DNA of 64,000 nt from a virus: positions 1-64,000 of IMG/VR virus record IMGVR_UViG_3300021093_000034; one strand, given 5' to 3'. The position numbers and the translations under genes were made by a program. This document shows, one piece after another, positions 28,221-43,362 of the stretch. Every line of letters starts with the position of its first letter. Positions within the stretch are counted from its first letter, which is position 1. The notes below the pieces were generated by a model. It made no database searches, was not told where the DNA came from, and worked only from the letters and a program-made list of their open reading frames with translations.

Positions 28221-30494
28221 TCAAGCCGTGTTGTTGGCTATTCTTTCGGACACACTGACCATGTCCTGCATTTCAGAAACTATCTTTTGTATTTCAGCAG
28301 TTTGCAGCTCGAGTGTTCTTTTTTGCTGCTCGCTGCTAGTAACCAATTGATCTTTTAGTTCAGTCATGACCTGACTCAGGCCACTAGGTGCAGAAAATGC
28401 TGTTTCTATTGCCCGGGTCACTGCTGCTGGCAATTCTGCAATTGGAGCTATATCAGGTGTAGCACTATCTTTGCGCCTTTCAATATCTTTTTGCAAAGAG
28501 TCTAAACTGGCTGCAAAAATATTTTGTAATTGAGTGGTTTTAGCTAATAGTTCAGTTGGATCAAGATTAGCTGCAAATTGATCCAAAGGAACAATCTGTC
28601 CTGGAGCGTCAAATGTTCTTACTTCAGGTCCTTGTTCGCCCACAATATAAGGAAGGAAACGACCCACCGGACCTCCGTCTGCTCTGGGTTCGGGTACAGG
28701 AAAAGTTGCTCGTACCCACCGTTTAAAAATTTCAGTCATGTTGGCCTTGTACTCTTCAAGATCTGTTACTGGTCCTGGAGGCGTTCTTCCAGGAACATCT
28801 ACACCAAACATCAATGACAGTGTTTGTTGTAGTCCTTGCACAAAGGCCTCGGTTGTGGCACCAATTGCTGTGGCATATTTTGGTAAAGCCTCTAAAGCCA
28901 AGTTTTCTATAGCTTTGGCAAATTTTTGTGTTTGATCTTGAGCTTTAAGAATACCGGTTGTGAGATCACCGCTGGCTGTGGCTTGATCTTCAGCAGCACG
29001 TTTTGATTGTTTATATATGTCTTTATCTTTAAATGCAAGAGCTACAAGTTCGTTAATACCAGTTGTTAAGCCGCCTAAACTGCCACTCAAGGTGTTAATC
29101 ATGGGTATTACACCACCAGTTGAGTCTTCAAGTTCTTTTTGTTTTTTACCTGCACGTATGGATTGTTCTACCCCTGCTTGTTGAGCATCTGCTACACTCT
29201 TGGATGAGTCGTAAATTATTTCTCTGCCTAATGTGAAAATTCTAGCAAAGTCCTCATTGTTAGCAGATAACAAAGCGGCAGTTTCCTCTGTAATTACTTG
29301 ACCGCCTGAAGCTATAAATTGTAAAAATCCTTTTTTAGCTGATTCTGGCAAATAACGAAAGTATGCCTGAAATTTGTTGGCCTGTTCTGGATCAGTGAAC
29401 TTGCTCATGATATCAGCTTGCATGGATTTAATTCTAGCTTCTTCGACTAAAGCCTTGGCATTTTTTCCTGTAATATCTTGTAGCACTTTTAAATCAACAG
29501 CATATGCTTTGGTAGCTCTAGCCACATCGGCAGCCTGAAGATTTTTAAACTGCTCCTGAGTCATAGTGGCACGTACAGTGCTTAAATAATCAGCTGCCAG
29601 TTCTGCCTGCTCCTCGATCGAGTAACCAAGCGCACGTAACTCATTGCGTAGCGTTCTTCCGTTAGCACCTTGTTCAGTTTCAAATGCAGCACTCACGTCT
29701 GCAACTTTTTTAGCTCCTTCGGCTAACGGAATACCAAAATTTCTAATAGACGCTTCAGCGGCTGCTACAGACTTGGTAAATTGTTCTATAGTCATACCCG
29801 ATCTAGAAGCAACATCGCGCAGCTCCATGAAACTGCCCGAAAAACTGGCACCCATTTTGTTAAACGTGCCCATGTTTTGTATGGTTTCCTGCAGTTCTTT
29901 GCTCATCATCTCGTTGATGACCTTGGCGCCGGATCCCAATACGCCGACTACGGCGCTGCTTGCTTTGCTCAGACCTTTGATTACAGTACCTAGTGGGCCT
30001 AAATATTCTGTCAGATCGGCGCCAGATTCAATTATTCCTCGTATGCCCATTGTGGCCATATCAATACCGGTACTGAAAATTCCAGCTGTGGCAGCAATAG
30101 GGTTATCTTGTATGCTTTTGGCCGATTTAGTAAAGGTAATACTCATGTCAGCCACAGCAGTAGACAGTCGTTGTAATTCAAAAGCAAAGCGACTGTTTTT
30201 GAAATCTTGTGCAGCAATAGTAGCAGCATTCATGCCAGATTCAAACTTGCTCCAACCCGACGATGTGGCAGCAGCAGCTGAACGTGACGCACTGGCCAAG
30301 CCCGCCATGCTGCCAGCTGCTTCGTCAGCTGAATTAGCAGTACGTTTGGTCGCCGCTGCGGCTTCAGCGTCGTATCGACGCTGACGATTGCTTTGGCTGG
30401 CCATTACTCGCAGCAACTCTTGCAAGGTGCTTTCTTGAGCAGCGTTTTCTACATAAACTGGACCAGTTGGTAATCCATCAATTCTGATAGCCAT
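28221..30494 (-). CDS. Tail tape measure protein
   Basis: 757 aa (T4 gp29 is 590 aa). It sets tail length and may be delivered with DNA. The N-terminus is followed by Ala/Ser-rich helices, hydrophobic segments around 130-200 (GTVIKGLSKASSAVVGVLGS), and long helical stretches. The C-terminal part has ADGGPVGRFLPYIVGEQGPE, a motif common near the ends of tape measure proteins, then a coiled coil (SSEQQKRTLELQTAEIQKIV). If length scales as in T4, the tail would be longer than T4's. GGA precedes ATG 30494. It sits next to the portal gene and divergent from gp26, unlike T4. Confidence 0.75.
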   Translation of the reverse strand: MAIRIDGLPTGPVYVENAAQESTLQELLRVMASQSNRQRRYDAEAAAATKRTANSADEAAGSMAGLASASRSAAAATSSGWSKFESGMNAATIAAQDFKNSRFAFELQRLSTAVADMSITFTKSAKSIQDNPIAATAGIFSTGIDMATMGIRGIIESGADLTEYLGPLGTVIKGLSKASSAVVGVLGSGAKVINEMMSKELQETIQNMGTFNKMGASFSGSFMELRDVASRSGMTIEQFTKSVAAAEASIRNFGIPLAEGAKKVADVSAAFETEQGANGRTLRNELRALGYSIEEQAELAADYLSTVRATMTQEQFKNLQAADVARATKAYAVDLKVLQDITGKNAKALVEEARIKSMQADIMSKFTDPEQANKFQAYFRYLPESAKKGFLQFIASGGQVITEETAALLSANNEDFARIFTLGREIIYDSSKSVADAQQAGVEQSIRAGKKQKELEDSTGGVIPMINTLSGSLGGLTTGINELVALAFKDKDIYKQSKRAAEDQATASGDLTTGILKAQDQTQKFAKAIENLALEALPKYATAIGATTEAFVQGLQQTLSLMFGVDVPGRTPPGPVTDLEEYKANMTEIFKRWVRATFPVPEPRADGGPVGRFLPYIVGEQGPEVRTFDAPGQIVPLDQFAANLDPTELLAKTTQLQNIFAASLDSLQKDIERRKDSATPDIAPIAELPAAVTRAIETAFSAPSGLSQVMTELKDQLVTSSEQQKRTLELQTAEIQKIVSEMQDMVSVSERIANNTA

Positions 30495-30504
30495 ATTTTT
30501 CCAC

Positions 30505-30512
30505 TATAAATA
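30505..30512 (+). promoter_or_regulatory. T4-type late promoter box (TATAAATA) for gp26-gp51
   Basis: Exact consensus TATAAATA on the plus strand, with predicted start near 30518. It faces the minus-strand box at 30525-30532. Confidence 0.6.
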
Positions 30513-30545: not shown

Positions 30546-31382
30546 ATGGCCGTAGCAGCTAATAATCCGTTATTCAAACATTTTCGACAACCAGCACTGT
30601 ATCTAAAATTGCCAAGTCAAGGACAATTTTGGCCTGACGCAGCTATTGATTTACCGGTAACCGGTGAAATTCCTGTGTATCCTATGACGGTCAAAGACGA
30701 AATTACCTTGAAAACCCCTGATGCACTCATGAACGGTGTAGGTGTAATTGAAACAATACAAAGCTGTTGTCCCAATATCAAAGATGCCTGGAAAATGCCC
30801 ATAATTGACCTCGATGCTGTATTGATTGCCATAAGATTGGCCAGCTACGGTCATAATATGGACATAACTACAAATTGTAAACAGTGTGCCAGTGAAAATG
30901 ACAATACTGTTGATCTGCGTATGGTACTAGATCGTTTGCGTATTCCAGAATTCAAATCAGAACGTATTGATAATTTGACATTTAAATTTAGACCACAAGC
31001 ATTTGAAGACAACAACAAAGTCAACATGATACAGTACGAGCAGCAACGCTTGATAGACGCAGTGACCAGCAGTACTCTAAGTGACGAAGAAAAGAAAGCG
31101 CAATTTGATCAAATTTTTCCCAGATTGACTGATTTAAGTGTGGCCACAGTGGTTAACAATATAGAATCCATCACACTAGAAGATGGTACTCAAGTGACCG
31201 ACGAATACTACATAAAAGAGTTCTTGTTCAATTGCGAACGTAGCACATACACAGAAATAAAAAACAAAATAGATAACTTGATCAAACAATTACAGATTGA
31301 TCCAATGGAAATCGTTTGTTCAGAATGTCAGACAACATATCAAGCCGAGTTAAATTTTAATCAAGCAAATTTTTTCGGATGA
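30546..31382 (+). CDS. 26: Baseplate hub / tail assembly protein gp26
   Basis: 278 aa (T4 gp26 is 208 aa). The T4 baseplate (gp26-type) family pattern is clear: FRQPALYLKLPSQGQFW, EIPVYPMTVKDEITLKTPDA, CCPNIKDAWKMPIIDLDAVL and IRLASYGHNMDI. Two CxxC pairs (C111/C114 and C258/C261) could bind zinc. The gene ends in codons GCA AAT TTT TTC GGA TGA, which contain two canonical -1 slippery heptamers. The -1 frame is the downstream small ORF. It is divergent from the tape measure gene, which suggests a tape-measure chaperone role in addition to the classical hub assembly role. Confidence 0.88.
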   Translation: MAVAANNPLFKHFRQPALYLKLPSQGQFWPDAAIDLPVTGEIPVYPMTVKDEITLKTPDALMNGVGVIETIQSCCPNIKDAWKMPIIDLDAVLIAIRLASYGHNMDITTNCKQCASENDNTVDLRMVLDRLRIPEFKSERIDNLTFKFRPQAFEDNNKVNMIQYEQQRLIDAVTSSTLSDEEKKAQFDQIFPRLTDLSVATVVNNIESITLEDGTQVTDEYYIKEFLFNCERSTYTEIKNKIDNLIKQLQIDPMEIVCSECQTTYQAELNFNQANFFG

Positions 31383-31411
31383 GGCTTTTGACCATGTCTG
31401 AATCAGACATG
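31367..31411 (+). promoter_or_regulatory. Candidate -1 ribosomal frameshift site and downstream hairpin
   Basis: In the gp26 frame, A AAT TTT (31367-31373) and T TTT TTC (31370-31376) both fit X XXY YYZ. A -1 slip enters the frame of the 31379-31606 ORF, whose frame is open from 31361. A perfect 8-bp hairpin, CATGTCTG and CAGACATG around AAT, spans 31393-31411. It lies 16-19 bases downstream and covers the alternative ATG at 31394. Predicted fusion: 353 aa. Confidence 0.5.
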
Positions 31412-31606
31412 CTAACGTACTTCGAACAGCTAGAACGACAGTCAAAAGCCATAAAAGAAGAAATGCTGAGAATGTGTTGGTACATGAGAGGTGGACTCAG
31501 CTATGAAGATTCCATGCTGTTGAGCAATGATGATCGTGCTCTAATAGGTAAAATAATCAAAGACAATTTAGAAACTGCTAAGAAATCAGGAATGCCATTC
31601 TTCTAA
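31379..31606 (+). CDS. 51: Small gp51-like hub assembly protein / possible frameshift extension of gp26
   Basis: 75 aa from ATG 31379, which overlaps the gp26 stop as ATGA. A second ATG at 31394 has GAGG nine bases upstream but is inside a hairpin. The helical sequence SDMLTYFEQLERQSKAIKEE and MCWYMRGGLSYEDSMLLSND resembles small gp51-type proteins of T4-like marine phages, though it is much shorter than T4 gp51 (249 aa). It may be made alone by coupling, or as a -1 frameshift fusion with gp26. It is followed at once by a hairpin and a terminator. Confidence 0.65.
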   Translation: MRLLTMSESDMLTYFEQLERQSKAIKEEMLRMCWYMRGGLSYEDSMLLSNDDRALIGKIIKDNLETAKKSGMPFF

Positions 31607-32015: not shown

Positions 32016-33035
32016 TTATACTGCGGTACTTGTTATAATTTTAGCCAGAAAATTGCTGTAAAGTTGATGTGTTTTTGGGCCAGGGTGTAGATTATCGGTG
32101 CCAAAGTCTTGATATAAAAATAAGCCTTGAGTATTGTATGTTTTAGCGTTTTTATTTAATAGATATTTGAATTGATAATAATATTGTTCATTTAGTAAAG
32201 ATCGATTTAATAAATCATCAATTACTGCATTAAACATTACTAATTGGATGTCGAGTTTTTTACAAAAGTTTATTAATTCTCTAATAGATTCCAAGCATTG
32301 AAATAAGTTATTTTCGTCGTCCAATTGATCAATTGGGAAAATTCTGTTAAATGCACTATTCTTTTGATATAATGCATTTAAAGCATGAAGATGATGTAAT
32401 TGATCTTGGTAGTAATACGGTATTCTTCTAAAGGTTGTTATCCCCCAACACAGTATGTCTCCAGACCTGATGTCAGATTTTAAAATCTGATTAGCAGCCC
32501 ACCGAATTGACGATCCGGGCGCAGTTAAAAAACTACAAGGCAAATCTAATTTATCGCCTACAAGAGAACCATATCGTTCAGTAGGTTTTACACCAACGCC
32601 GTGACTTACACTACATCCTGCGATCCAAATTTGCTTGCTGTTGGTTTTTCTAGTGTCGGCGATAGAATTTTTATATTTTTGACTAATGCATAAATTTAAA
32701 TTAACAACTTTTACTTGATCTGACAAATAAAGTAATAAAATTTCAGACGAGCCTTGTATGCAGTCGGTGGCATTGGTTGCAGTTATAGTTTTGTGATCAG
32801 ACCATACTTCCGGTGGGCAGTATACAATAGTATCAGCTGATAGCAAGATTTCCATCACAATTGATATGTCTTTGGGAAGATCTGCTAGCGAAGTGTAGCA
32901 TACTAGATTGTGTCGCCGAGATTCCAAGAACTCCTGATAATTGCTTGACTCAACTAAAAAAGCATCGCGTCTGTGCGCTTTTGCTTGTTCGGCAAGTTCA
33001 ATATTGCAATCACCAAAATATATAACTTTGCTCAT
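32016..33035 (-). CDS. SGNH-hydrolase-like protein A
   Basis: 339 aa. After about 130 residues of unassigned N-terminal domain comes IWIAGCSVSHGVGV (Ser-containing block I, residues 136-149). Then come LTAPGSSIRWAANQI (block II-like) and DILCWGITTFRRIP. The end is GTDNLHPGPKTHQLY, with the Asp-x-x-His pair of block V. The layout matches SGNH/GDSL esterases, which remove acyl groups from lipids or sugars. It is the last gene of the 13-gene operon and overlaps the GIY-YIG gene as ATGA. It is clearly similar to the protein at 41601-42488. Confidence 0.65.
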   Translation of the reverse strand: MSKVIYFGDCNIELAEQAKAHRRDAFLVESSNYQEFLESRRHNLVCYTSLADLPKDISIVMEILLSADTIVYCPPEVWSDHKTITATNATDCIQGSSEILLLYLSDQVKVVNLNLCISQKYKNSIADTRKTNSKQIWIAGCSVSHGVGVKPTERYGSLVGDKLDLPCSFLTAPGSSIRWAANQILKSDIRSGDILCWGITTFRRIPYYYQDQLHHLHALNALYQKNSAFNRIFPIDQLDDENNLFQCLESIRELINFCKKLDIQLVMFNAVIDDLLNRSLLNEQYYYQFKYLLNKNAKTYNTQGLFLYQDFGTDNLHPGPKTHQLYSNFLAKIITSTAV

Positions 33036-33457
33036 TTCTTTTTTATGTGCGATCCGTGGACACGAACGCTAATCTGTCCGTTATAGTATTGATCTGATTC
33101 TAAGACTTGGTGTCTAAATTGTTCCCTTGCTTCAATATATGAACATTCTGCTCGTGATTTGCAGTAAAAAAGTATTTCTCTAGTAAATTTTTCTGGGCCT
33201 AGTGATTCGATGTCTTTGTTTAGTTCGTCGTTTGAGCCATAATAGGTTTGCCAATCACTGTCTATTTTGCTTCTGATTCTTTTTTTCTTTTTGTTGCCGT
33301 TTTTTAGTTTTACTGTTCGTACTGTAGTTTTTGAAAATTTGGCTAGTTTTTTTCCTATATATTTGCGCCCAGATACTGTATTTGTAATCAAATATACAAA
33401 TCCCACGCAATCTTCAGGAAGTGATTCCACTAGAGTGGATTCGAATAGCCATGACAT
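33032..33457 (-). CDS. GIY-YIG endonuclease-like protein
   Basis: 141 aa. The core GFVYLITNTVSGRKYIGKK (residues 19-37) carries the GIY-YIG pattern (VYL and YIG), followed by WQTYYGSNDELNKDIESLGP and a later YIEAREQF helix with the expected Glu. A Lys/Arg-rich loop (LKNGNKKKKRIRSK) is inserted after the first strands. It is probably a stand-alone homing-type or repair nuclease. It overlaps the following SGNH gene as ATGA. Confidence 0.75.
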   Translation of the reverse strand: MSWLFESTLVESLPEDCVGFVYLITNTVSGRKYIGKKLAKFSKTTVRTVKLKNGNKKKKRIRSKIDSDWQTYYGSNDELNKDIESLGPEKFTREILFYCKSRAECSYIEAREQFRHQVLESDQYYNGQISVRVHGSHIKKK

Positions 33458-33467
33458 ACAGCATTAA

Positions 33468-34052
33468 TTATGCCTTGTAGTCTAGATTACAATAAAATGT
33501 TATTTCCTCAATACAAGTATTTTGATTTAATTTTCCTGCATACTTTATAAAATCTGATACATCTTGCAAATTTAAACCATTTCCAGTCCACGTTGGGCGA
33601 TTTCTGCTTAGTTCTGTGTCTAACCGGTCTAATGTAATCAAAGTAGTTTTAAAAGCCACTTTATTAGCCTTAAACGATGCTGTACATTGTTTACTTGCGT
33701 GTGTCAATGCTGCTTTGGCCACACGATATGTTTCAAATCCGGGCTCACGAGCCACAACATGTTTTTCGCCTACGCTGCCAATGTTATAGATATGTCCTGC
33801 TTTGTGGTTTTTGCTCCATGCGTCGTATACTGCTTCTAACACATGCACTTGTCCAAAATTAGCCCATGCTTCTTGTGGTGGACCATCAAAGGCATTGTTT
33901 ACAAACACGTCATAATCCAAACTCAATTTGGCTATATATTCGTGATCTTGTGTAATATCAACGCCGTCTATACGACTAATGCTAACGCCGTTAAACTCTT
34001 CAACTAGATGTTTTCCTAATCCTCGATTACCACCTGTTACTAACACTTTCAT
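33468..34052 (-). CDS. Short-chain dehydrogenase/reductase (SDR)
   Basis: 194 aa, compact for the family. The NAD(P)-binding motif TGGNRGLG is at residues 6-13 and NNAF (for NNAG) at 52-55. Catalytic Ser93 lies in NIGSVGE, and Tyr109/Lys113 in YRVAK. All key residues are present, so an active oxidoreductase or NDP-sugar epimerase/reductase is likely. It overlaps the upstream radical SAM gene as ATGA, suggesting a shared pathway. Confidence 0.88.
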   Translation of the reverse strand: MKVLVTGGNRGLGKHLVEEFNGVSISRIDGVDITQDHEYIAKLSLDYDVFVNNAFDGPPQEAWANFGQVHVLEAVYDAWSKNHKAGHIYNIGSVGEKHVVAREPGFETYRVAKAALTHASKQCTASFKANKVAFKTTLITLDRLDTELSRNRPTWTGNGLNLQDVSDFIKYAGKLNQNTCIEEITFYCNLDYKA

Positions 34053-35164
34053 CTAATGGATCCTCCTTGATCCCAAACTTTGGTAAATTTTTCTCCGCAT
34101 GTCATCGCACATTCCATAATTCTATTAGAATCAGACCAACTGTCAACCAAGTCGCGCCAAAAATAAGATTGAAATATCTTTTGTAAACTGTGATGTTTTA
34201 TATCCAATTGGTCTTTATAATTTTCTATAAATTCTTTTACTTGTATTTTTCCTGTGTTAGTAAAACTGGCACTATTGGCACCTGGTTTTGCAAACGAATG
34301 AAATCTTGCGTCGTACATGTTGTGTTCAAAAAAGTTACATGGAAGTACAAGCCCTTCGGCAGTAATCACAACTTTGTTACCTAATAAGGCATCACATTTG
34401 ATTGGTGTTTGTTGTAAATAGTCTTTAAAAGTCCCATACATTTGTTTGATAACTTCTATTTTTTGTACACTGGGATTACGCCATTCAGAATTATTTGGTT
34501 CTTCTAGCAAGTATTCTGTATGACCATGCCTGTCCAGTACTGGCCAATTGGGGTATGCACATTCGTTGGCATGATCGTAAAAACGGCCAGTCTTTTTTGG
34601 TAAAAAATTAAAGAATCCGTATTCTTTACTCAATTGTCTTGCTTGTTCAACTTGATGTTCGTTATGTTTAAAAACTATAAAGTTCCATTGCGCTCGACCG
34701 CCCTTGCGAATAAATGCTCTAGCATTACGTATAGCAATAGAGTATTTTACATTACGTCTATAGATGTGTAAAGTGTCCTCTAGTCCATCAAAGCCAAAAT
34801 CAATTTGACCATAACCGTTCATGATGGTCGCTATTTCTTCCCAATAGCTTTCGTCATGCACACCACCATTGGTGTGAACGTATAACCATACTGTTGGATT
34901 TTTAGTTCTAAAATCTTGAAGAATGTCTAAGAAGTCAGGATGCATGACAGGATCGCCATAACTCCCGCAAAAAAATATTTGCTTTAATTGACTACAATGG
35001 TCAACGCTGAAGGCAGCATCAATTACTTCTCTATCTAAATGTATCAACGGCATGTAAGGATTAAGTCCTGATCCTTGTACGTTTCTTGGACATTGGGGGC
35101 AGGCAGCATTACAATAAGTTGTAATTTCCAATTGATATTCTTTAATTTTTTTATAATCAAACAT
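34049..35164 (-). CDS. Radical SAM enzyme with SPASM-like C-terminus
   Basis: 371 aa. The 4Fe-4S/SAM motif CNAACPQC (C18, C22, C25) is followed by IFFCGSYGDPVMHPDFLDIL and HTNGG, as in radical SAM barrels. C-terminal cysteines (IKCDALLGN, LVLPCNFFEHN, MECAMTCGEK) resemble an auxiliary-cluster SPASM domain found in peptide- and sugar-modifying enzymes. Substrate unknown. Overlaps: 8 bases with the gene upstream and ATGA with the SDR. Confidence 0.88.
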   Translation of the reverse strand: MFDYKKIKEYQLEITTYCNAACPQCPRNVQGSGLNPYMPLIHLDREVIDAAFSVDHCSQLKQIFFCGSYGDPVMHPDFLDILQDFRTKNPTVWLYVHTNGGVHDESYWEEIATIMNGYGQIDFGFDGLEDTLHIYRRNVKYSIAIRNARAFIRKGGRAQWNFIVFKHNEHQVEQARQLSKEYGFFNFLPKKTGRFYDHANECAYPNWPVLDRHGHTEYLLEEPNNSEWRNPSVQKIEVIKQMYGTFKDYLQQTPIKCDALLGNKVVITAEGLVLPCNFFEHNMYDARFHSFAKPGANSASFTNTGKIQVKEFIENYKDQLDIKHHSLQKIFQSYFWRDLVDSWSDSNRIMECAMTCGEKFTKVWDQGGSIR

Positions 35165-35672
35165 CAGGTAAATCTTTAAAAAAGTTTTTGGCCACCTCTA
35201 AGGTGTCACTGTTTGTTTTAAATATAGTTCCGGCTAACTTTGGACCCGGTTTTCTTAAATCAATTAACCAAGCTGCTGCTGGAGTAGCAAATTCAAATTT
35301 CCAAGCACCGTTGTGACCCAGGTACAAATTGGGACAAATAAAGTAAGGCTCATGCTCGGCCTTGTGCATATAAACTGGAAAGAACTTGCCATTCCAAAGT
35401 TCAGACTCTAGCTTTATACAATCAAGTTTAATACCTTTAATTTCAACATGCCTATCTATAACAATATTACCGTATGGATCATGCACATGGTGTTCCGGCG
35501 ATTTTCCGTAGTGAATTACAGTCAAATCGTGACCACCGTCAACTAAATCTACGTCAAAATCATAATAATCCTGGGCTGGCCCATCGTCCAAAGTCAAATA
35601 ATCGTCAACAACTATTTTTATCATTGGGTTTCCTAAGCGCCGTTCTACATTAAGATCTATTTCCAGCCTCAA
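35157..35672 (-). CDS. Unknown protein between radical SAM genes
   Basis: 171 aa, acidic and beta-rich. The N-terminal half alternates charged and hydrophobic residues (MIKIVVDDYLTLDDG, YYDFDVDLVDGGHDLTVIHY). The second half has EIKGIKLDCIKLESELWNGK, PNLYLGHNGAWKFEFATPAA and a C-terminal helix. This looks like a beta-sandwich or carbohydrate-binding-like fold, but no family is assigned. Overlaps on both sides (ATGA and 8 bases) place it inside the radical SAM cassette, so it could be a partner or substrate protein. Confidence 0.6.
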   Translation of the reverse strand: MRLEIDLNVERRLGNPMIKIVVDDYLTLDDGPAQDYYDFDVDLVDGGHDLTVIHYGKSPEHHVHDPYGNIVIDRHVEIKGIKLDCIKLESELWNGKFFPVYMHKAEHEPYFICPNLYLGHNGAWKFEFATPAAAWLIDLRKPGPKLAGTIFKTNSDTLEVAKNFFKDLPDV

Positions 35673-37174
35673 TGTATTACTCCTGCCAGTTTGCTTAACC
35701 TGTCTTGATATTTGTCCATCATAATCTTCATCTGATCGTCGCCCTTCCAGAAAGTATATCCCAGAGCAACTGCATGTTCTTGAGCTCGTATACGACGCAT
35801 TATACGCTCTTTATAAGTCAATGTGGGATTGTCTTCACATAACCATTCGGTGCCTTGTGGACGTTGGTTGTTTACACCTATTATTTTAAATCTTTCAGGA
35901 TTGTTGTAGAGTTCAGTCCCTTCTTCTATTGTGAGAGTGGTACCCAAGTTCACTCCTATAATTGTACCATCAGCTACATAACGCTGATATCTTGTTAGCA
36001 TGTCTAGAGTGGCAATAAAATCTTCTTCTCTTTCTGTAGGAAACCCTACGATAATTAGAAAATACACATGCATATTAAACTTGCTGTAATATTCCATGTT
36101 GTAATCTAACTCGTAGTTAGTAAAACCCTTTCGCATATGAGCACGTACACGATCGCTTCCAGTTTCAACTCCGATTACCATAGTGTCTGCGCCAGCTCGA
36201 CTCATGTATTCAAAATCTTCCGGACGAAAAGCTTTTTGTCCGTGAACAATAGCATGACTACTATAGCTAAAATACCGATCGGGTAACCCGTGCAGTTGGT
36301 AATAGTCCACTAGCAACTCATTGAATTGTCTCAAATCCCTGACACTACCGTTGCACAAAGCATCGTGGAAAAAATAATCACGCACGCCATAAGATTCATA
36401 ATAATGAATCATTTCCTTGGCCAATTGTGATCCGGTTTTGAATCTGAAGCCCCCCTGCATGGTAGGAATGTCGCAAAACGTACAATTGCGTACACACCCT
36501 CTACTGGTTTCCATGGGAAGCACACCAGACCGGTACCCACTTTGATATTCGGTGATTTTAAAATCACCGAAGTCCATGGGTCGGTGTTTTTTTACATCGC
36601 TGCGTTCGGCAAAGAAATCTGTATCGATACCGGCAACCAAATAGTTGCCTTTGATAATTTCCGGTATGGTTGTTTCAGCTTCGCCACGTATCCAATGGTC
36701 GATTAACCGTTCTTTTTTTAAATAATGAGCAAATTCCGGACGTTCGCTAAAACTGCCATTTTCTTCTCTAATCAGACCTTGGCCGCCCACAATTACTTCT
36801 ATAGTACTATGGCATCTAAATCTTCGTAAGAATAATTCTGTAAATCTTTGTGCCTGCCAACTAAAAACACTAATTAACAATTTTTCAGGTGATATTGACA
36901 GTATTTCACCAATCCACTCATTAATGAACTTAAACAAGTTTTTTTCTGCTTCAATTGATAGAATCCTGTTCTTTACAAATAGATATTCGTCAATTTCATT
37001 GAACAGTGCGGGTTTAATTGAATTTTTAAATTGTGTAAAATAATCTATATTGATATCTAAAATTTTGCTACACAAATTGTGTTGGTTAAAAATTTGCTTG
37101 ATGATTGCAGGTGCTGCTGCTGGGCGCACCGGTGCTACTCTTGGTATACTTAGGATAACTGCGTAAGTATTCAT
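35669..37174 (-). CDS. B12-type radical SAM enzyme
   Basis: 501 aa. The N-terminal roughly 180 residues have the layout of a cobalamin-binding-like Rossmann domain (LLISVFSWQAQRFTELF, IEVIVGGQGLI, WIRGEAETTIPEII), but no clear DxHxxG motif. The radical SAM motif is CVRNCTFCD (C227, C231, C234), preceded by PMETSRG and followed by VRDYFFHDAL and MVIGVETGSDRVR. This order is typical of B12-binding radical SAM proteins such as methyltransferases and methylthiotransferase-like enzymes. It overlaps its neighbours as ATGA on both sides. Confidence 0.88.
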   Translation of the reverse strand: MNTYAVILSIPRVAPVRPAAAPAIIKQIFNQHNLCSKILDINIDYFTQFKNSIKPALFNEIDEYLFVKNRILSIEAEKNLFKFINEWIGEILSISPEKLLISVFSWQAQRFTELFLRRFRCHSTIEVIVGGQGLIREENGSFSERPEFAHYLKKERLIDHWIRGEAETTIPEIIKGNYLVAGIDTDFFAERSDVKKHRPMDFGDFKITEYQSGYRSGVLPMETSRGCVRNCTFCDIPTMQGGFRFKTGSQLAKEMIHYYESYGVRDYFFHDALCNGSVRDLRQFNELLVDYYQLHGLPDRYFSYSSHAIVHGQKAFRPEDFEYMSRAGADTMVIGVETGSDRVRAHMRKGFTNYELDYNMEYYSKFNMHVYFLIIVGFPTEREEDFIATLDMLTRYQRYVADGTIIGVNLGTTLTIEEGTELYNNPERFKIIGVNNQRPQGTEWLCEDNPTLTYKERIMRRIRAQEHAVALGYTFWKGDDQMKIMMDKYQDRLSKLAGVIH

Positions 37175-37476
37175 GGAATTGATTTTGTAGTCAAAAGATC
37201 ATCGGTACAATTTGTGCATCTTTCAAGTCTACAAGTTGTAGGTTGATCTAACAATTTAAAATCCTCAAATAGAACACCTAAAAAATCATTTTCGCATTGG
37301 GCACCGTAAACATTAAGTTTGCTGTCAATCAAGATATAATCTAATCCAGCGTTACATTTCCAGCCTTGCCAATAATCAAGCTGTTCACTATGTAATCTAT
37401 TAGAATACATTAAATATTCGTTGCCTTTTTCGTCGCGAACAACTACATTATAATTATAATCAATTAATTGCTGCAT
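37171..37476 (-). CDS. SPASM-like auxiliary-cluster fragment (second half of a split radical SAM gene)
   Basis: 101 aa from ATG 37476. It carries CNAGLDYILIDSKLNVYGAQ followed by Cys, and later CRLERCTNC, a cysteine arrangement typical of the C-terminal SPASM/auxiliary-cluster domain of radical SAM enzymes. It has no radical SAM core of its own. The preceding gene (37460-38119) has the core but no such domain and overlaps it by 17 bases in another frame. It is therefore either a separate subunit or the result of a one-base frameshift. Confidence 0.65.
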   Translation of the reverse strand: MQQLIDYNYNVVVRDEKGNEYLMYSNRLHSEQLDYWQGWKCNAGLDYILIDSKLNVYGAQCENDFLGVLFEDFKLLDQPTTCRLERCTNCTDDLLTTKSIP

Positions 37477-38119
37477 AGTTGTCAAAATCAAAAAGATTCA
37501 AATTATTGTTTGTTTTTGCCTTATCTCTTATACGTAAAGTCCAATCAATTTCTGAAATTGAAAAATTTATATTGTGTTGATTTAAAAATTTTTTGTAAAT
37601 TTCAATGCGATCTTTATGCCAAGGTTCATTCATTATGTTAACATGCACTGTTTTATTAAGTCCTGTAATGGCATTTTTAGCACACAACACATTATTAAAA
37701 AATTTGTTTTCATTTAAAAATTCGCTATGTGTAGAAAAACTTATCCAATCTAAATATTCTAATAGATCCAAATATAATTTTTGGTTAGCAGTGCCATTAG
37801 TAACTATTCCTATCAATGCCAACTTATCTCTATATGAGGTTACAAGCCACTGTATAAAAGGCAACAGGTCTTGATTTATGGTTACTTCACCTCCGGTTAA
37901 ACTTATTTTATATTTTAAGTTTCTGTGCTTGGTTTTATCATAAATTTCAAACCAACATTGTTTTAACTCATTCAAAGTCTTAGTTTCTGAGGTCAAACTG
38001 TGCCACTTTTCAGGACAATACATACAATCAAAATTGCATCTATCATGCAGGTGCCATGCCACTATAATATTACGATCTACAGGTGACACACTTACTATAG
38101 GTATTGATTTGTAGCTCAT
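37460..38119 (-). CDS. Radical SAM core protein (first half of a split gene)
   Basis: 219 aa. The motif CNFDCMYC (C28, C32, C35) is followed by KISLTGGEVTINQDLLPFIQ and GIVTNGT, a standard radical SAM barrel start. The protein ends soon after ISEIDWTLRIRDK, where homologues would continue into an auxiliary-cluster domain. That domain is encoded in the next ORF in the +1 frame. A T5 run near 37490 (codons CTT TTT) is a likely spot for an indel. The ATG overlaps the gp46 stop as ATGA. Confidence 0.8.
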   Translation of the reverse strand: MSYKSIPIVSVSPVDRNIIVAWHLHDRCNFDCMYCPEKWHSLTSETKTLNELKQCWFEIYDKTKHRNLKYKISLTGGEVTINQDLLPFIQWLVTSYRDKLALIGIVTNGTANQKLYLDLLEYLDWISFSTHSEFLNENKFFNNVLCAKNAITGLNKTVHVNIMNEPWHKDRIEIYKKFLNQHNINFSISEIDWTLRIRDKAKTNNNLNLFDFDNYAAIN

Positions 38120-39885
38120 TTAATATCAACGTCTGTATTATAACTAGTAAATCCGTTTTCTTTGATTACACTTAATACGTTGTTAACACGACCTGCTAGC
38201 TCATCTTTGTGACTAACTAACCATACACTACGATTACCTTCTCTGCTCATTTTTTTAAGTATGGCCAGGCTGTTTTCAACACCTGAACTATCCATACCAG
38301 TATCAATCACTTCGTCAATGAACAACAAGTTAATTGGTTGGTACAAACTTTCCCATACATCACGGAAAGCCCAACTTAGACTTAGAATCAATCTATTACG
38401 TTCGCCGCGACTTAGGTTATCAAAATCTAATTCTCTGCCTAGCTCTTCAATACTTACAGTAAGATCATTTTGAAATTTAACAGTATGCGGCAGTCCAATA
38501 CGATCCAAGTACTGACTTAATCTAGAATTTAAGTAAGATAAGTTTTGATCAATAATACGTTTACGTATAAAACTGTCTTTGTTAGTTAGTAATTTAAGCA
38601 AAAATTCTTGATGTTCTCGAACATTAGCAAGTTCATTGATTGAATCGTAACTAACTTCCTCTACAGCCTTTGTTTCCATTTCACGAATTTGTTCCGCATA
38701 CGGATCTTGGTCACTTTTCTTTGTAGCAAGTTGTTGCTGTAAGTTTGCTACGGTATTGCGGTGATTAATAGCATCTTCCTTGCGATCGTAAAACACCGTA
38801 GGAATAGGACCTAAATTACCTATCAATGCAAGTGCATCTACATGAGACATCAGCTGTTCATCGTTGGCCAAATACTGTAGTGAAGTTTCTTTTAGTGTGT
38901 TTCTTTTTTCTTCTAATACCTGTTCGTGCCGAGTATCATGTAATGCTTGTCCACAGGCATAGCACTCGTGCTTTTCTAAAGTTTCTATTTCTCTTTTAAG
39001 TTTATCTAAGGACTTTAATATTCTGACTTGATCAGTTTCACAGGCTACTTTCCACCGATTAATTTCTGCGGCTTTTTTAGTTTTTTCATTGTAATCATCA
39101 AGTAAATCATGATTTAATAGTTCTTGATCAATATCTAAATCTCCTACAACACTTAACGCTTGCTCTAGTTCCGCAATTTCATTTAGACGTTTAGTATTCC
39201 ATAATGTTTGTCTACGACGTGTGGCTTCAATTTGTTCTTGGATACGAGCATTGGCATCGGCCACAGCTTTAATTCTGTATTCTTCTTGAGTAATTGTATC
39301 TCGGGTGGCCTTTAATTGTTCCTTAAGAGCGTCGGCCTTTTCACTTAGCATGGTAATGCCCAGCAACTGTTCAATGATAGCACGTTGGTCATTGGCCTTT
39401 AACGCCAGGAACGGTTCAGTATAAGTGTTCAGTGCAACGATATGCTTGAACATGTCGTGACTCATACCTAACATGCGCTCAATTTCTGCTTGTGTTTCTC
39501 TGCTATCGCCCTGACTTTCGTCTGAGATTTGTTGTTCCTGCCCGCCCACGTAGAATGCCATAGTGTTGGGCTTACGACCTCGCTCAATTCTGTAGTCAAC
39601 TCCGTCTTTTTCAAATTCAATAGTGACCAACATGTTCTTACCATTTGTTTTGTTGATAAGATTGTCTTTTTTGATATTGGTCAATGCACTACCATACAAC
39701 GCATAACTCAGTGCATTGATAATGGTTGTTTTTCCTGTACCATTACGTGCGCCTGTATCGTCGCCACCGAGGTCCAAGTTCTGACCTAGTACAAGAGTGA
39801 GATCCCGACGATCAAACTGAACAGCCTGGGTAGCATTACCCACGCTCAGGAAATTCTTTACGGCTAGAGTTCGTATTTTAAACAT
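38116..39885 (-). CDS. 46: Recombination exonuclease subunit gp46 (Rad50/SbcC-like)
   Basis: 589 aa (T4 gp46 is 560 aa). It is the ATPase subunit that, with gp47, processes DNA ends for recombination-dependent replication. Walker A is GARNGTGKTT (45-54). The central coiled coil carries the zinc hook CYAC (C308/C311). The C-terminal signature LSRGERNRLILSLSWAFRDV and Walker B NLLFIDEVIDTGMD follow. It overlaps the upstream SGNH gene by 22 bases and the downstream radical SAM gene as ATGA. Confidence 0.95.
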   Translation of the reverse strand: MFKIRTLAVKNFLSVGNATQAVQFDRRDLTLVLGQNLDLGGDDTGARNGTGKTTIINALSYALYGSALTNIKKDNLINKTNGKNMLVTIEFEKDGVDYRIERGRKPNTMAFYVGGQEQQISDESQGDSRETQAEIERMLGMSHDMFKHIVALNTYTEPFLALKANDQRAIIEQLLGITMLSEKADALKEQLKATRDTITQEEYRIKAVADANARIQEQIEATRRRQTLWNTKRLNEIAELEQALSVVGDLDIDQELLNHDLLDDYNEKTKKAAEINRWKVACETDQVRILKSLDKLKREIETLEKHECYACGQALHDTRHEQVLEEKRNTLKETSLQYLANDEQLMSHVDALALIGNLGPIPTVFYDRKEDAINHRNTVANLQQQLATKKSDQDPYAEQIREMETKAVEEVSYDSINELANVREHQEFLLKLLTNKDSFIRKRIIDQNLSYLNSRLSQYLDRIGLPHTVKFQNDLTVSIEELGRELDFDNLSRGERNRLILSLSWAFRDVWESLYQPINLLFIDEVIDTGMDSSGVENSLAILKKMSREGNRSVWLVSHKDELAGRVNNVLSVIKENGFTSYNTDVDIK

Positions 39886-40592
39886 TGTATGTGTTGGTAT
39901 AATAAGTCTGATAAATGATTATGTCCATCTTCAAGAATATGTCCGTGAGGACCAATTGGAAATTTTTGACTTAAATCATTAATAGTAAAATTATTCCATT
40001 TGTAAAATTTTTCTGTATCAATACATTTGATATAATATTGTATTTCGTTGTATTCTGCAAAAATTTGCTCATCATTCATGAGATCAAAATTTATTAAATC
40101 TTTAACAGAAGATATAAATTTATGTTTAGGAGCAAGCCATTTGCTTAGATCATTTGGAAAGGTGTTAATCATTAAATAATTTTTTTTAAATTTTTCAAAG
40201 CAGCTTTGTAATTGAATAATTTGCTGCAACCAAAGTTTGAATGAAAATAATTCATTGTGCCAATGCTTGTATAAAGTTTTGCCCCAATTGGTATAAAAAG
40301 CATTATCGCAATAAAGTTGATTCTTCAACAATGGGTTAAAATTTATTTCATAATTATTGTCTGATTTATAAAATGTATATCGACTAGTGGCAGTCCACGC
40401 AATAATGTATAAATTACAATTTTTATTAAAGTTTTTTAAACTTTGATATACAGTTCTATAATTTGTACCACCACTAACAGCATCATTAATCACTGTTGTG
40501 TTAAGCTTTTTAGCTAAAAGATAAGGCCAGGAATTATTTGTATCACTTAATTCGTAGCCAAAAGTAAAACTACAACCATTGGTATAAATCAT
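39864..40592 (-). CDS. SGNH-hydrolase-like protein C, inserted between gp47 and gp46
   Basis: 242 aa, Asn/Lys/Tyr/Phe-rich. The N-terminus IYTNGCSFTFGYELSD has the SGNH block I (GCSFTFG), followed by VSGGTNYRTVYQSL (block II-like) and YIIAWTATSRYTFY. The end, HGHILEDGHNHLSDLLY, gives the Asp-x-x-His pair. The lower GC and lysine-rich code compared with gp46/47 suggest a later insertion. It overlaps gp47 as ATGA and gp46 by 22 bases. Confidence 0.65.
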   Translation of the reverse strand: MIYTNGCSFTFGYELSDTNNSWPYLLAKKLNTTVINDAVSGGTNYRTVYQSLKNFNKNCNLYIIAWTATSRYTFYKSDNNYEINFNPLLKNQLYCDNAFYTNWGKTLYKHWHNELFSFKLWLQQIIQLQSCFEKFKKNYLMINTFPNDLSKWLAPKHKFISSVKDLINFDLMNDEQIFAEYNEIQYYIKCIDTEKFYKWNNFTINDLSQKFPIGPHGHILEDGHNHLSDLLYQHIQCLKYEL

Positions 40593-41608
40593 AAATTTTT
40601 ATAAATGTCAAGCAATAGTGTTTTATTGTACTGCTCGCTTTGGATATTAGTAAGTTGGTTAGTTACAATTGTATCTACACTTTCAAACATTATATTACCA
40701 GTAATATCGTAATTGATATCCTCACTGATTGCTTTTTGAGGAATAAGGGTAATTTCTCTGAGATTGTAAGTATTTACAAAAGTTTCTTTGATAAATGTAG
40801 CTTCTTCATAACTAATGTCAACATCAAGATTCACACGAACATGCATGCCTTTGTGTAGTAGCCGATCAGTGTTGGTCAATACATTGCTGAGTTGATACAC
40901 ACGATATCTAGGTTGGTCAGGCCAGGAATGATACTCTGGCTCTGCACCCCACTCTAAGATCATCATACCGCGTTCGTCGTCGTGATTGTCTGCGTAATTG
41001 TGCGGAAAGCAGTTGCCAATGTAGGTGATGTTTCGTTGCGTCTGTCGTTTATGAAAATGTCCAGTAAATACTCGTTCAATACCAGTAAAGTCTTCTCGTC
41101 GGACATCTCCATGGTCCGGCATCTGCACCATTGCGTTCATGTAGAATGTAGGCAGTTCAAAATGCCCAAACATGTATTTTGCACTTAGCTTAGGTATACG
41201 TTTGTAATCATCCCCAACTAGCCAAGGGGCCACAATAACATCACCGTCGTGTAGCCAATCATTACAAATGACAACATTCGGTAGATGTCGAGCCCACTCA
41301 ACACTTTGGACATCCCTCTTGTCCCTATAATATAAGTCATGATTGCCAGGAATGAAGTACACACGATCGAAGTTATCGTTGAGATGTTCCAGAGCACGGA
41401 GACTATAGTTAAGAGTGACAATATTGATACTAGCACGATTGTTATGCCAATCTCCAAGAAAAAACGCTGTTTCACATCCTTCCTCCCGTGCTTTAGCTGT
41501 AAACCATTTGATAAAATTCAAGCAATCGTCGTTGTGAGTTTGACTGTTGCTCTTTAAACCAAAATGTATATCTGTACAGACTGCTGCTCGTTTAAATAAG
41601 TTAGACAT
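40589..41608 (-). CDS. 47: Recombination endonuclease subunit gp47 (Mre11/SbcD-like)
   Basis: 339 aa, same length as T4 gp47. Metallophosphoesterase motifs are all present: CTDIHFG (D13, H15), FLGDWHNN (52-55), IPGNHD (88-91) and FTGHFHKR. It partners gp46 in resecting DNA ends. Normally gp46 follows directly, but here a 242-aa SGNH gene separates them. It overlaps the upstream SGNH-B stop region by 8 bases. Confidence 0.95.
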   Translation of the reverse strand: MSNLFKRAAVCTDIHFGLKSNSQTHNDDCLNFIKWFTAKAREEGCETAFFLGDWHNNRASINIVTLNYSLRALEHLNDNFDRVYFIPGNHDLYYRDKRDVQSVEWARHLPNVVICNDWLHDGDVIVAPWLVGDDYKRIPKLSAKYMFGHFELPTFYMNAMVQMPDHGDVRREDFTGIERVFTGHFHKRQTQRNITYIGNCFPHNYADNHDDERGMMILEWGAEPEYHSWPDQPRYRVYQLSNVLTNTDRLLHKGMHVRVNLDVDISYEEATFIKETFVNTYNLREITLIPQKAISEDINYDITGNIMFESVDTIVTNQLTNIQSEQYNKTLLLDIYKNL

Positions 41609-42488
41609 CTAGTAATTGTACACGATTTAACAAAGTGTTTGCAAGATTTTTATGACTCAAAGGACCAAAATGAAGATTGTCGGATCCCCGATCAACAGCA
41701 AAGTTAGTCGCACAATAAAACTCCGGATATTTTGAATACCTGTAATTAAATTCCATATCCCTACTATCAACACAAAGAACTATAAATTTAACTCCAATGC
41801 TTCTTAGATATTGAACACCAATATTAACATAGCTTAGTTGTAAAAAGAAACATTGCTCATTTGTATATGTTTCAATTAATGTTCGATTGTTACAATTAGC
41901 GAGAACAATTTCTTGAACATGCTTGCCGTTAAAAAAACTTAACCTATACGGAGAAGTAATTTGCCATACAACAATATCATCTTTTTTTAAATTAGAATTA
42001 ATTAATTGACGTAAACTCCAGTGAGTAGAACTACCTGGTTTTGTAATTAATTTTAACGGAAGATTTAAACCTTCAGCTAAATGGTTTCCATAAGGTTTGG
42101 AATTATGGTTTAACCCGGTACCGTGGCTGTGACTACAGCCATACACCCACAGGGTACTTTTGCTATAACTTGAATTGATATCAGAATGTTCAGCAAAGGA
42201 CAACACCTCGTCTCCAAGAAAATTGTTAACGTGCATAGTGTTTACATAAGACAAAAAATTTAAAGTGTCTATAGTTATTTCTTCGTCTTTGATAAAATTA
42301 TTGTCTATGTATTCTATACTATCAAAATAATGAACTATAGATAACAATTCATGGATTGTTAGATCCGCCAGCGTCGTATGATATTCTGTTGAGGTTAGTT
42401 TAGTATTAATATTATCAAGCAATATAGAGTTTTTGTTGACTGAATTAAAATTAAAAGTTGGGTGAGTGATGTAAAGTTTAGTCATCAT
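41601..42488 (-). CDS. SGNH-hydrolase-like protein B
   Basis: 295 aa from ATG 42488 (or 294 aa from the adjacent ATG 42485). A longer frame into gp55 is unlikely. The second half is similar to the protein at 32016: TLWVYGCSHSHGTGL, LITKPGSSTHWSLRQL, DDIVVWQITSPYRL and GSDNLHFGPLSHKNLA. This gives Ser, Gly/Ser, and Asp-His positions of an SGNH fold. The N-terminal 125 residues are not recognised. It overlaps gp55 by 11 bases, suggesting coupled translation. Confidence 0.65.
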   Translation of the reverse strand: MMTKLYITHPTFNFNSVNKNSILLDNINTKLTSTEYHTTLADLTIHELLSIVHYFDSIEYIDNNFIKDEEITIDTLNFLSYVNTMHVNNFLGDEVLSFAEHSDINSSYSKSTLWVYGCSHSHGTGLNHNSKPYGNHLAEGLNLPLKLITKPGSSTHWSLRQLINSNLKKDDIVVWQITSPYRLSFFNGKHVQEIVLANCNNRTLIETYTNEQCFFLQLSYVNIGVQYLRSIGVKFIVLCVDSRDMEFNYRYSKYPEFYCATNFAVDRGSDNLHFGPLSHKNLANTLLNRVQLLDV

Positions 42489-43362
42489 TGTAATCGCCAG
42501 ATGTTTGCCCGCCACCCCATGATCCCATACCCTGTCTGGTATAACTTGGAGTAAGTCCATTCATTTCAAGAATATCATCTCGTAAATTTTGATTGCGTTT
42601 TTCAATGTTGAGGACTCTAGTAAAACTATTAGTGATAGCGGCAGTATAATAGGCAAAAGGATTTTGTGACTTGCTCTCATCAAATTGTAGTCCTATCTGT
42701 GATAATTGTAGTAGTGCTTGCGAACGCATTTCATCATTGTATGTATAACCGCGCCAGTTTGAACGGGTAGCGTAACGCTCGCATAATTTCATAAACATGT
42801 GTGCTAACTTTGGAGTCATTGTTCCGTGATCTTTAGAAAAATGTCCTCGCTCTAGATTGCCCTTCCAATGGCTTTTGCCTACGCAATAAGGTACACCCGA
42901 TTCATCAATTTTGTAGTGTTGAAACGGTGGAAAATTTACTTTGGTATATTTGGTTGCACTGGGTACGTCCAAACTGTCATCATATTCGGTTACAGGATCT
43001 TCGTCATCTACTACAATTGCAATTTTTGATTTTTTGGATTTAGTGGTGTCAATGGGCACATGTTCCCAAGTCATAACACGGAACACTATGTCAGTAGTAA
43101 CAACTTTGTTGGGTTTTACGGCAAAGTCGTCTAGTTTTAATTTAGTAGCACTTGCGGCTTGAGCAGCATCGTAAGCAGCTCGTCCTAGTCGCTCAGCCCT
43201 TAGTTTTCGACCTTCTGCGATGTTTTTTTTGTTTATTTTGTCAACACTAGGCAAAATTATGTCGTAATGCCCATCTTCTGGTGTTAAAAAGCTACAATAA
43301 GTCATTTTGCTTTTGTGAATTTCTTTGAGAATATCTCTATTATTCAGATAGTTGTGTTTCAT
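42478..43362 (-). CDS. 55: Late transcription sigma factor gp55
   Basis: 294 aa (T4 gp55 is 185 aa). It directs host RNA polymerase to late promoters of TATAAATA type. The conserved core lies in the C-terminal half: MFMKLCERYATRSNWRGYTY, EMRSQALLQLSQIGLQFDES and NPFAYYTAAITNSFTRVLNI, a region-2-like helix set. The N-terminal roughly 150 residues are a variable extension with acidic loop VVDDEDPVTEYDD. The C-terminal tail QGMGSWGGGQTSGDYNDD resembles sliding-clamp-binding tails only loosely. AAGGAA precedes ATG 43362, and it is the first gene of the 13-gene operon. Confidence 0.9.
   Translation of the reverse strand: MKHNYLNNRDILKEIHKSKMTYCSFLTPEDGHYDIILPSVDKINKKNIAEGRKLRAERLGRAAYDAAQAASATKLKLDDFAVKPNKVVTTDIVFRVMTWEHVPIDTTKSKKSKIAIVVDDEDPVTEYDDSLDVPSATKYTKVNFPPFQHYKIDESGVPYCVGKSHWKGNLERGHFSKDHGTMTPKLAHMFMKLCERYATRSNWRGYTYNDEMRSQALLQLSQIGLQFDESKSQNPFAYYTAAITNSFTRVLNIEKRNQNLRDDILEMNGLTPSYTRQGMGSWGGGQTSGDYNDD

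Follow-up and report, generated by a model that had tools for sequence, protein, structure and literature searches.

A very probable −1 programmed frameshift, with a covarying RNA stem, in the gp26 chaperone gene of T4-like phages

Introduction

A −1 frameshift in the gene of a tail assembly chaperone (TAC) is a known kind of recoding. In T4-like phages, the tail assembly chaperones, reportedly gp26 and gp51, are the subject of a 2022 study by Vladimirov, Gautam and Davidson (Virology 566:9–15). Both T4 proteins are listed among the hub assembly chaperones, and gp51 is required in assembly and missing from the particle (PMC3004832). The passages on this subject in two later papers cite the 2022 study, the PRFect paper for T4-like phages that have a short gene and a fused long gene with no frameshift (PMC10885494), and the paper on phage Adele for the slippery poly-T runs that T4-like phages carry in their TAC-N genes (PMC12846349). 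From its title, these two citing papers and the two-copy pattern described below, our reading is that gp26 and gp51 are the chaperones of that study. A literature search turned up no directly relevant report of a frameshift in the chaperones of cyanophages or jumbo phages.

The window analyzed here is a 64-kb stretch out of an 84.7-kb environmental virus record. It carries T4-type portal, capsid and baseplate genes and comes from a T4-related bacteriophage of freshwater. At the end of its gp26-like gene, a slippery heptamer, a downstream RNA stem and an open −1 reading frame occur together, an arrangement that can be compared across a large set of relatives.

Results

Anatomy of the gp26 junction

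The gp26-like gene (30546–31382, plus strand) encodes the 278-aa short form, or TAC-N. In a profile search its product matches phrog_150 (80.6 bits, 2.5e-22), and it scores 56.8 bits (3.4e-15) against PF12322 (T4_baseplate), well above the curated cut-off of 24.5, which places it in the T4 gp26 family. The AlphaFold2 model (pLDDT 88) finds other gp26-like viral proteins as its structural matches and, in a comparison with the PDB, no solved chaperone at E ≤ 0.001. The latter result is weak evidence, since the TACs of known structure (such as HK97 gp13 and YqbN) are small and diverged. The comparison gives no fold support for kinship with lambda gpG. Membership among the chaperones is argued from gp26 homology and from published work; a short and a long form that share the N-terminal domain, as in lambda G/GT, are present by sequence anatomy only.

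The 3′ end of gp26 reads CAA GCA AAT TTT TTC GGA TGA, with the stop codon at 31380–31382. Within it, T TTT TTC (31370–31376) is a zero-frame heptamer of the X XXY YYZ type ahead of the stop, and is followed by a 6-nt spacer (31377–31382) that includes the stop codon and has the commonest heptamer-to-stem distance. The −1 frame is open from 31361 to 31603 and closes with TAA at 31604–31606. The gp51-like extension, or TAC-C (31376–31606, 76 codons and a stop), is proposed to be read only after frameshifting; its frame is open from the slip onward, and its protein sequence is conserved. A −1 slip is predicted to join 277 gp26 residues to 76 extension residues in a 353-aa fusion, and the reading frames bear out both the junction letters and the fusion given by an earlier reading made from the letters of this DNA (the sequence-only reading). 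That reading had also named two slippery heptamers. T TTT TTC is the conserved one; A AAT TTT was rejected as a second slip site and is incidental, because the codon before TTT TTC is variously AAT, AGT, CAT, CGT, GAT, ACT or TCT among relatives.

Conservation of the slippery heptamer

The window contains 23 copies of TTTTTTC where 23.9 are expected, so the motif alone is no evidence of frameshifting, and it is conservation that counts. Relatives were gathered by gp26, with cultured phages found by tblastn, and a second, independent sample was gathered by the extension alone, the two having a few contigs in common. At the end of gp26, TTTTTT(C/T) is in frame in 91 of 93 gp26 junctions, and all but one of the 93 have T TTT TTN together with the −1 relation. 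The two exceptions are Rhizobium phage RHph_I1_9, which has TTTTTTG, and Vibrio phage D532, which has no heptamer. In the extension-fetched sample, TTTTTTC ends exactly at the first base of extension codon 1 in 80 of 80 loci, and a gp26 ORF lies in frame 0 in 79 of the 80. Relatives that keep both genes with the slip site or the frame lost, which the sequence-only reading had named as the observation that would count against it, were looked for, and the outcome did not refute it: apart from D532, neither the 93 junctions nor the 80 extension loci supplied that pattern. A homologous extension is present in at least 581 IMG/VR stretches, and among 54 diverse representatives (<70% identity) the terminal Phe-Phe of gp26 is written TTT TTC in 53 and TTT TTT in one.

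Vibrio phage D532 has a single gp26 and a −1 extension, but CTTTTC AAG TAATGG at the position of the heptamer. This phage may reinitiate at TAATG by coupling, or may use a different slip.

A covarying stem downstream of the heptamer

When the RNA is folded from the first base past the heptamer, the 6-nt spacer is followed by a 10-bp stem in which GGCUUUUGAC (31383–31392) pairs with GUCAAAAGCC (31441–31450); on the plus strand of the DNA these putative stimulatory arms are GGCTTTTGAC and GTCAAAAGCC, respectively, both assigned by pairing and covariation. The stem thus begins within the 5–9 nt typical of RNA structures downstream of −1 slip sites. The fold in the window has a predicted energy of −24.5 kcal/mol (z −3.9), which none of 200 shuffled sequences equaled. 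Enclosed by this stem is an 8-bp hairpin, CATGTCTG-AAT-CAGACATG (31393–31411, plus strand), that the sequence-only reading had put forward as the downstream structure. The hairpin is present, and the ATG at 31394 lies within it; as a conserved stimulator it was set aside, being kept in only close relatives (locus L003), and the conserved element is the larger stem in which it is nested.

Across 20 relatives, 90.5% of stem cells are paired, against at most 59.5% when the arms are slid, and compensatory changes occur in 14 cells as compared with 4.0 in shuffled alignments (0 of 500 as many), distributed over five of the ten pairs. RNAalifold recovers the stem unaided. Because both arms are coding, significance was also assessed against controls in which each sequence was given random synonymous codons, for stems starting 3–9 nt past the heptamer and at p ≤ 0.05. 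By this measure the stem beats its controls in 35 of the 44 representatives drawn from the jumbo phages together with the window's own group (mean z 3.7), in five of nine members of the cyanophage group, and in 40 of 51 members of the extension sample (mean z 3.8), where the modal spacer is 6 nt, as it is in the gp26 sample. The arms vary by lineage yet continue to pair: GGCTTTTGAC/GTCAAAAGCC, GGCTCTTGA/TCAAGAGCC, GCCTCCTG/CAGGAGGC and GACTCCTTG/CAAGGAGTC are among the combinations, and in PA5oct they are TCCTAGTATCG/TGATATTAGGA, with G-U pairs included. For the marine group, RNAalifold gave no consensus stem, and strong stems are found at the right place in single sequences; differences in register and loop length are probably the reason for this miss.

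Start codons, codon choice and competing explanations

Taken together, the conserved heptamer, the −1 relation and the stem make a −1 programmed frameshift in the gp26 chaperone gene very probable on sequence grounds. The most serious competitor, itself improbable, is that translational coupling yields gp26 and the extension as separate proteins, with termination at 31380–31382 and reinitiation at ATG 31379 or ATG 31394. Overlaps of −1 by ATGA are common between coupled phage genes, and the window has one at 31379–31382; ATG 31394 has GAGG upstream (31381–31384), and separate initiation could occur at either ATG in the window. The junction alignment that the sequence-only reading had proposed, in which heptamer and −1 relation are conserved, retains the ATGA overlap in just 4 of 54 diverse relatives. 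ATG and GTG are absent from the first eight extension codons in 38 of 54 representatives and 64 of 80 extension loci; if TTG is also counted as a start, 23 of 54 and 31 of 80 still have none, and in PA5oct no ATG, GTG or TTG occurs anywhere in the extension. On the 5′ side of the slip, the median open stretch of the −1 frame is about five codons, leaving no room for a start codon of the extension's own. Translational coupling would also leave unexplained the invariant TTT TTC codons and the stem placed 6 nt behind them.

Less probable again is the idea that the heptamer is conserved merely for the Phe-Phe of the protein, the −1 ORF being either a remnant or an overlapping gene of the usual sort. 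Phe-Phe is indeed invariant in the gp26 alignment, but its codon choice is fixed at TTT TTC although TTT is preferred 75:25: elsewhere in the same 54 genes, phenylalanine is encoded by TTT 440 times and by TTC 147 times. Under this codon usage, and treating the representatives as independent, the fixation of TTT TTC has a log10 P of about −40; kinship among them raises the true probability above ~10^−40, though not to a large value. T4, which has a second full-length gene, keeps its Phe-Phe as TTC TTT, and D532 is the sole relative seen in which a single intact gp26 and its extension go with other Phe codons. The conservation of the extension over hundreds of loci likewise argues against a remnant.

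An assembly or sequencing frameshift error within one truly fused gene would fall most readily on a homopolymer run such as the one at this junction, the usual spot for indels, and yet it is scarcely credible, given that over 150 contigs share the junction, as do finished genomes of cultured phages, which contradict such an error, and that an in-frame fusion is never seen except in two-copy phages such as T4.

Genomic neighborhood

Adjacent to gp26 and divergent from it is a gene (28221–30494, minus strand) assigned as a probable tape measure gene by a weak match to phrog_5062 (2.4e-05), whose product, by analogy, is probably the client expected of the chaperone. The same divergent neighbor is also present in PA5oct, CBB, PBECO4, Phosso and RaK2. 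Upstream of gp26 lies TATAAATA (30505–30512, plus strand), which resembles the −10 element of a T4-type late promoter. Of 44 relatives, 21 have it in the 110 nt that precede gp26, as compared with 20 of 2200 random segments (~0.9%); it is also found upstream of gp26 in the jumbo phages CBB, PBECO4, RaK2 and XbC2. This enrichment suggests that a T4-type late promoter probably drives gp26, in those four jumbo phages as well.

A few hundred nucleotides past the stop of the gp51-like frame, on the opposite strand, is a Polynucleobacter-1 RNA (Rfam RF01718; 31883–32016, minus strand; 105.9 bits). It was found in 13 of the 37 fetched loci scanned, namely L001, which is near-identical to the window, and 12 other contigs (L004, L006, L023, L025, L031, L148, L149, L153, L160, L168, L174 and L194), and is evidently encoded by these T4-like phages themselves, at a fixed position. 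Downstream of it, from 33035 to 43000, is a run of minus-strand genes that by eye are apparently non-structural, including a short-chain-dehydrogenase-like ORF (33468–34052, minus strand) and a putative radical-SAM-like protein with CxxxCxxC (35669–37174, minus strand), both assigned by eye. A second candidate RNA, freshwater-2 (RF02980; 21827–21901, minus strand), barely exceeds its gathering score and is located in the structural region, beside the capsid gene.

Distribution and copy number

An in-frame heptamer followed by a −1 extension is found in cyanophages P-SSM2, S-PM2, P-RSM4, S-RSM4, Sf-FS3 and S-CRM01, in jumbo phages PA5oct, Atu_ph07, Phosso, CBB, PBECO4, RaK2 and XbC2, and in Vibrio phages nt-1 and K571; Methylophilales phage Melnitz has TTTTTTT in frame with a −1 extension. 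The 19 annotated phage records with the heptamer or its TTTTTTG form that were searched for PF12322 each have a single such domain. Phages T4, 44RR2.8t, G5211, EC-F2, KPN6 and ZZ1 have two PF12322-domain genes with the slip site in neither, and in these six gp51 is an in-frame fusion of a gp26 domain to an extension. In T4, gp26 ends GAG TTC TTT GAG TTA CTA TAA, so that Phe-Phe is kept and the slip is absent. Both solutions exist within the Straboviridae, with frameshifting predicted in nt-1 and two genes in T4. In Acinetobacter phage ZZ1, the gp51 domain is split over two pieces, giving three PF12322 matches, and the record mentions an overlapping CDS of the same name; the split is probably a sequencing or annotation frameshift.

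Discussion

The central proposal of the sequence-only reading, that a TAC pair is made here by −1 frameshifting, gains support from the conserved heptamer and −1 relation. In the mechanism proposed, most ribosomes would terminate at 31380–31382 and yield the short form, gp26 or TAC-N. A minority would be held up at the stem-loop 6 nt downstream, whereupon both tRNA-Phe could re-pair on T TTT TTC, moving from TTT TTC to TTT TTT, and the slipped ribosomes would read the −1 frame to 31606, producing the 353-aa long form that consists of TAC-N and the 76-aa C-terminal extension. By analogy with lambda gpG and gpGT, the short form may form a coat on the tape measure protein, and the extension may bring in tail tube subunits. 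We infer the slippage in cells, its efficiency and the chaperone function.

The spread of the frameshift is wider than that of the two-copy state, for which reason it seems rather likely that a frameshift stimulated by structured RNA is ancestral to the T4 supergroup as a whole, jumbo phages and cyanophages included, and that T4 escaped from it by gene duplication, with TTC TTT at the former slip site. The same scenario would have the ratio of long to short form under selection, because the sequence and loop of the stem vary by lineage while the 6-nt spacing is kept. What appears to be new here is the near-universality of the arrangement among phages other than the two-copy T4 lineage, the occurrence of the exact heptamer in freshwater and jumbo phages, and the covarying stem. 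One frameshifted chaperone gene would be the rule in hundreds of environmental T4-like phages, as well as in cultured jumbo phages and cyanophages.

Comparison with known systems

Among described systems, lambda gpG/gpGT and P2 gpE/gpE+E′ resemble what is proposed for the window in that the ribosome slips by −1 shortly before the short form ends, a C-terminal extension is added and, if the weak assignment holds, the tape measure gene is adjacent. Their slip sequences differ from that of the window, in which the gene is divergent from the probable tape measure gene rather than upstream of it, and no sequence or fold match to these chaperones was found. The Vandenendeviridae and Andersonviridae, exemplified by phage Adele, share a −1 site of poly-T type where TAC-N ends and a conserved open −1 frame; they are other phage families with other chaperone genes, and the relevant passages on Adele mention no covarying stem (PMC12846349).

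Closer to the window are the cyanophages P-SSM2, S-PM2, P-RSM4 and S-RSM4, which likewise have a single gp26 ending in T TTT TTC and a −1 extension. Their stem differs in sequence, the gene pair resides in another neighborhood, and the extension, of ~60 aa, belongs to a different sequence family (phrog_634). The extension of the window matched nothing in Pfam or PHROGs, phrog_634 included. Homology to the cyanophage and T4 extensions was considered on account of similar S-Y/L-x-E...ER motifs and was not supported (hhalign probability 1.6%); the correspondence between the window's extension and that of T4 gp51 (phrog_634) would be one of equivalent position.

The nearest cultured relatives of the window are jumbo phages PA5oct, Atu_ph07, Phosso, CBB, RaK2 and PBECO4, which share its slip site and −1 extension. 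In their records the second gene is separate, truncated or missing, with no frameshift marked, and a joined gene was annotated in none of the cultured-phage regions examined. If the frameshift operates as proposed, pairs now called “baseplate hub” and “baseplate hub assembly catalyst” should be annotated as the short and long forms of one TAC. With T4 itself, the window has in common the gp26 domain family (PF12322, phrog_150) and the scheme of a short and a long form. In T4 and its close kin the slip site has been lost and the two forms come from separate genes, 26 and 51, whereas the window has one gene and a proposed −1 frameshift. The contrast would amount to a natural experiment, frameshifting versus gene duplication, in how the ratio of short to long form is set.
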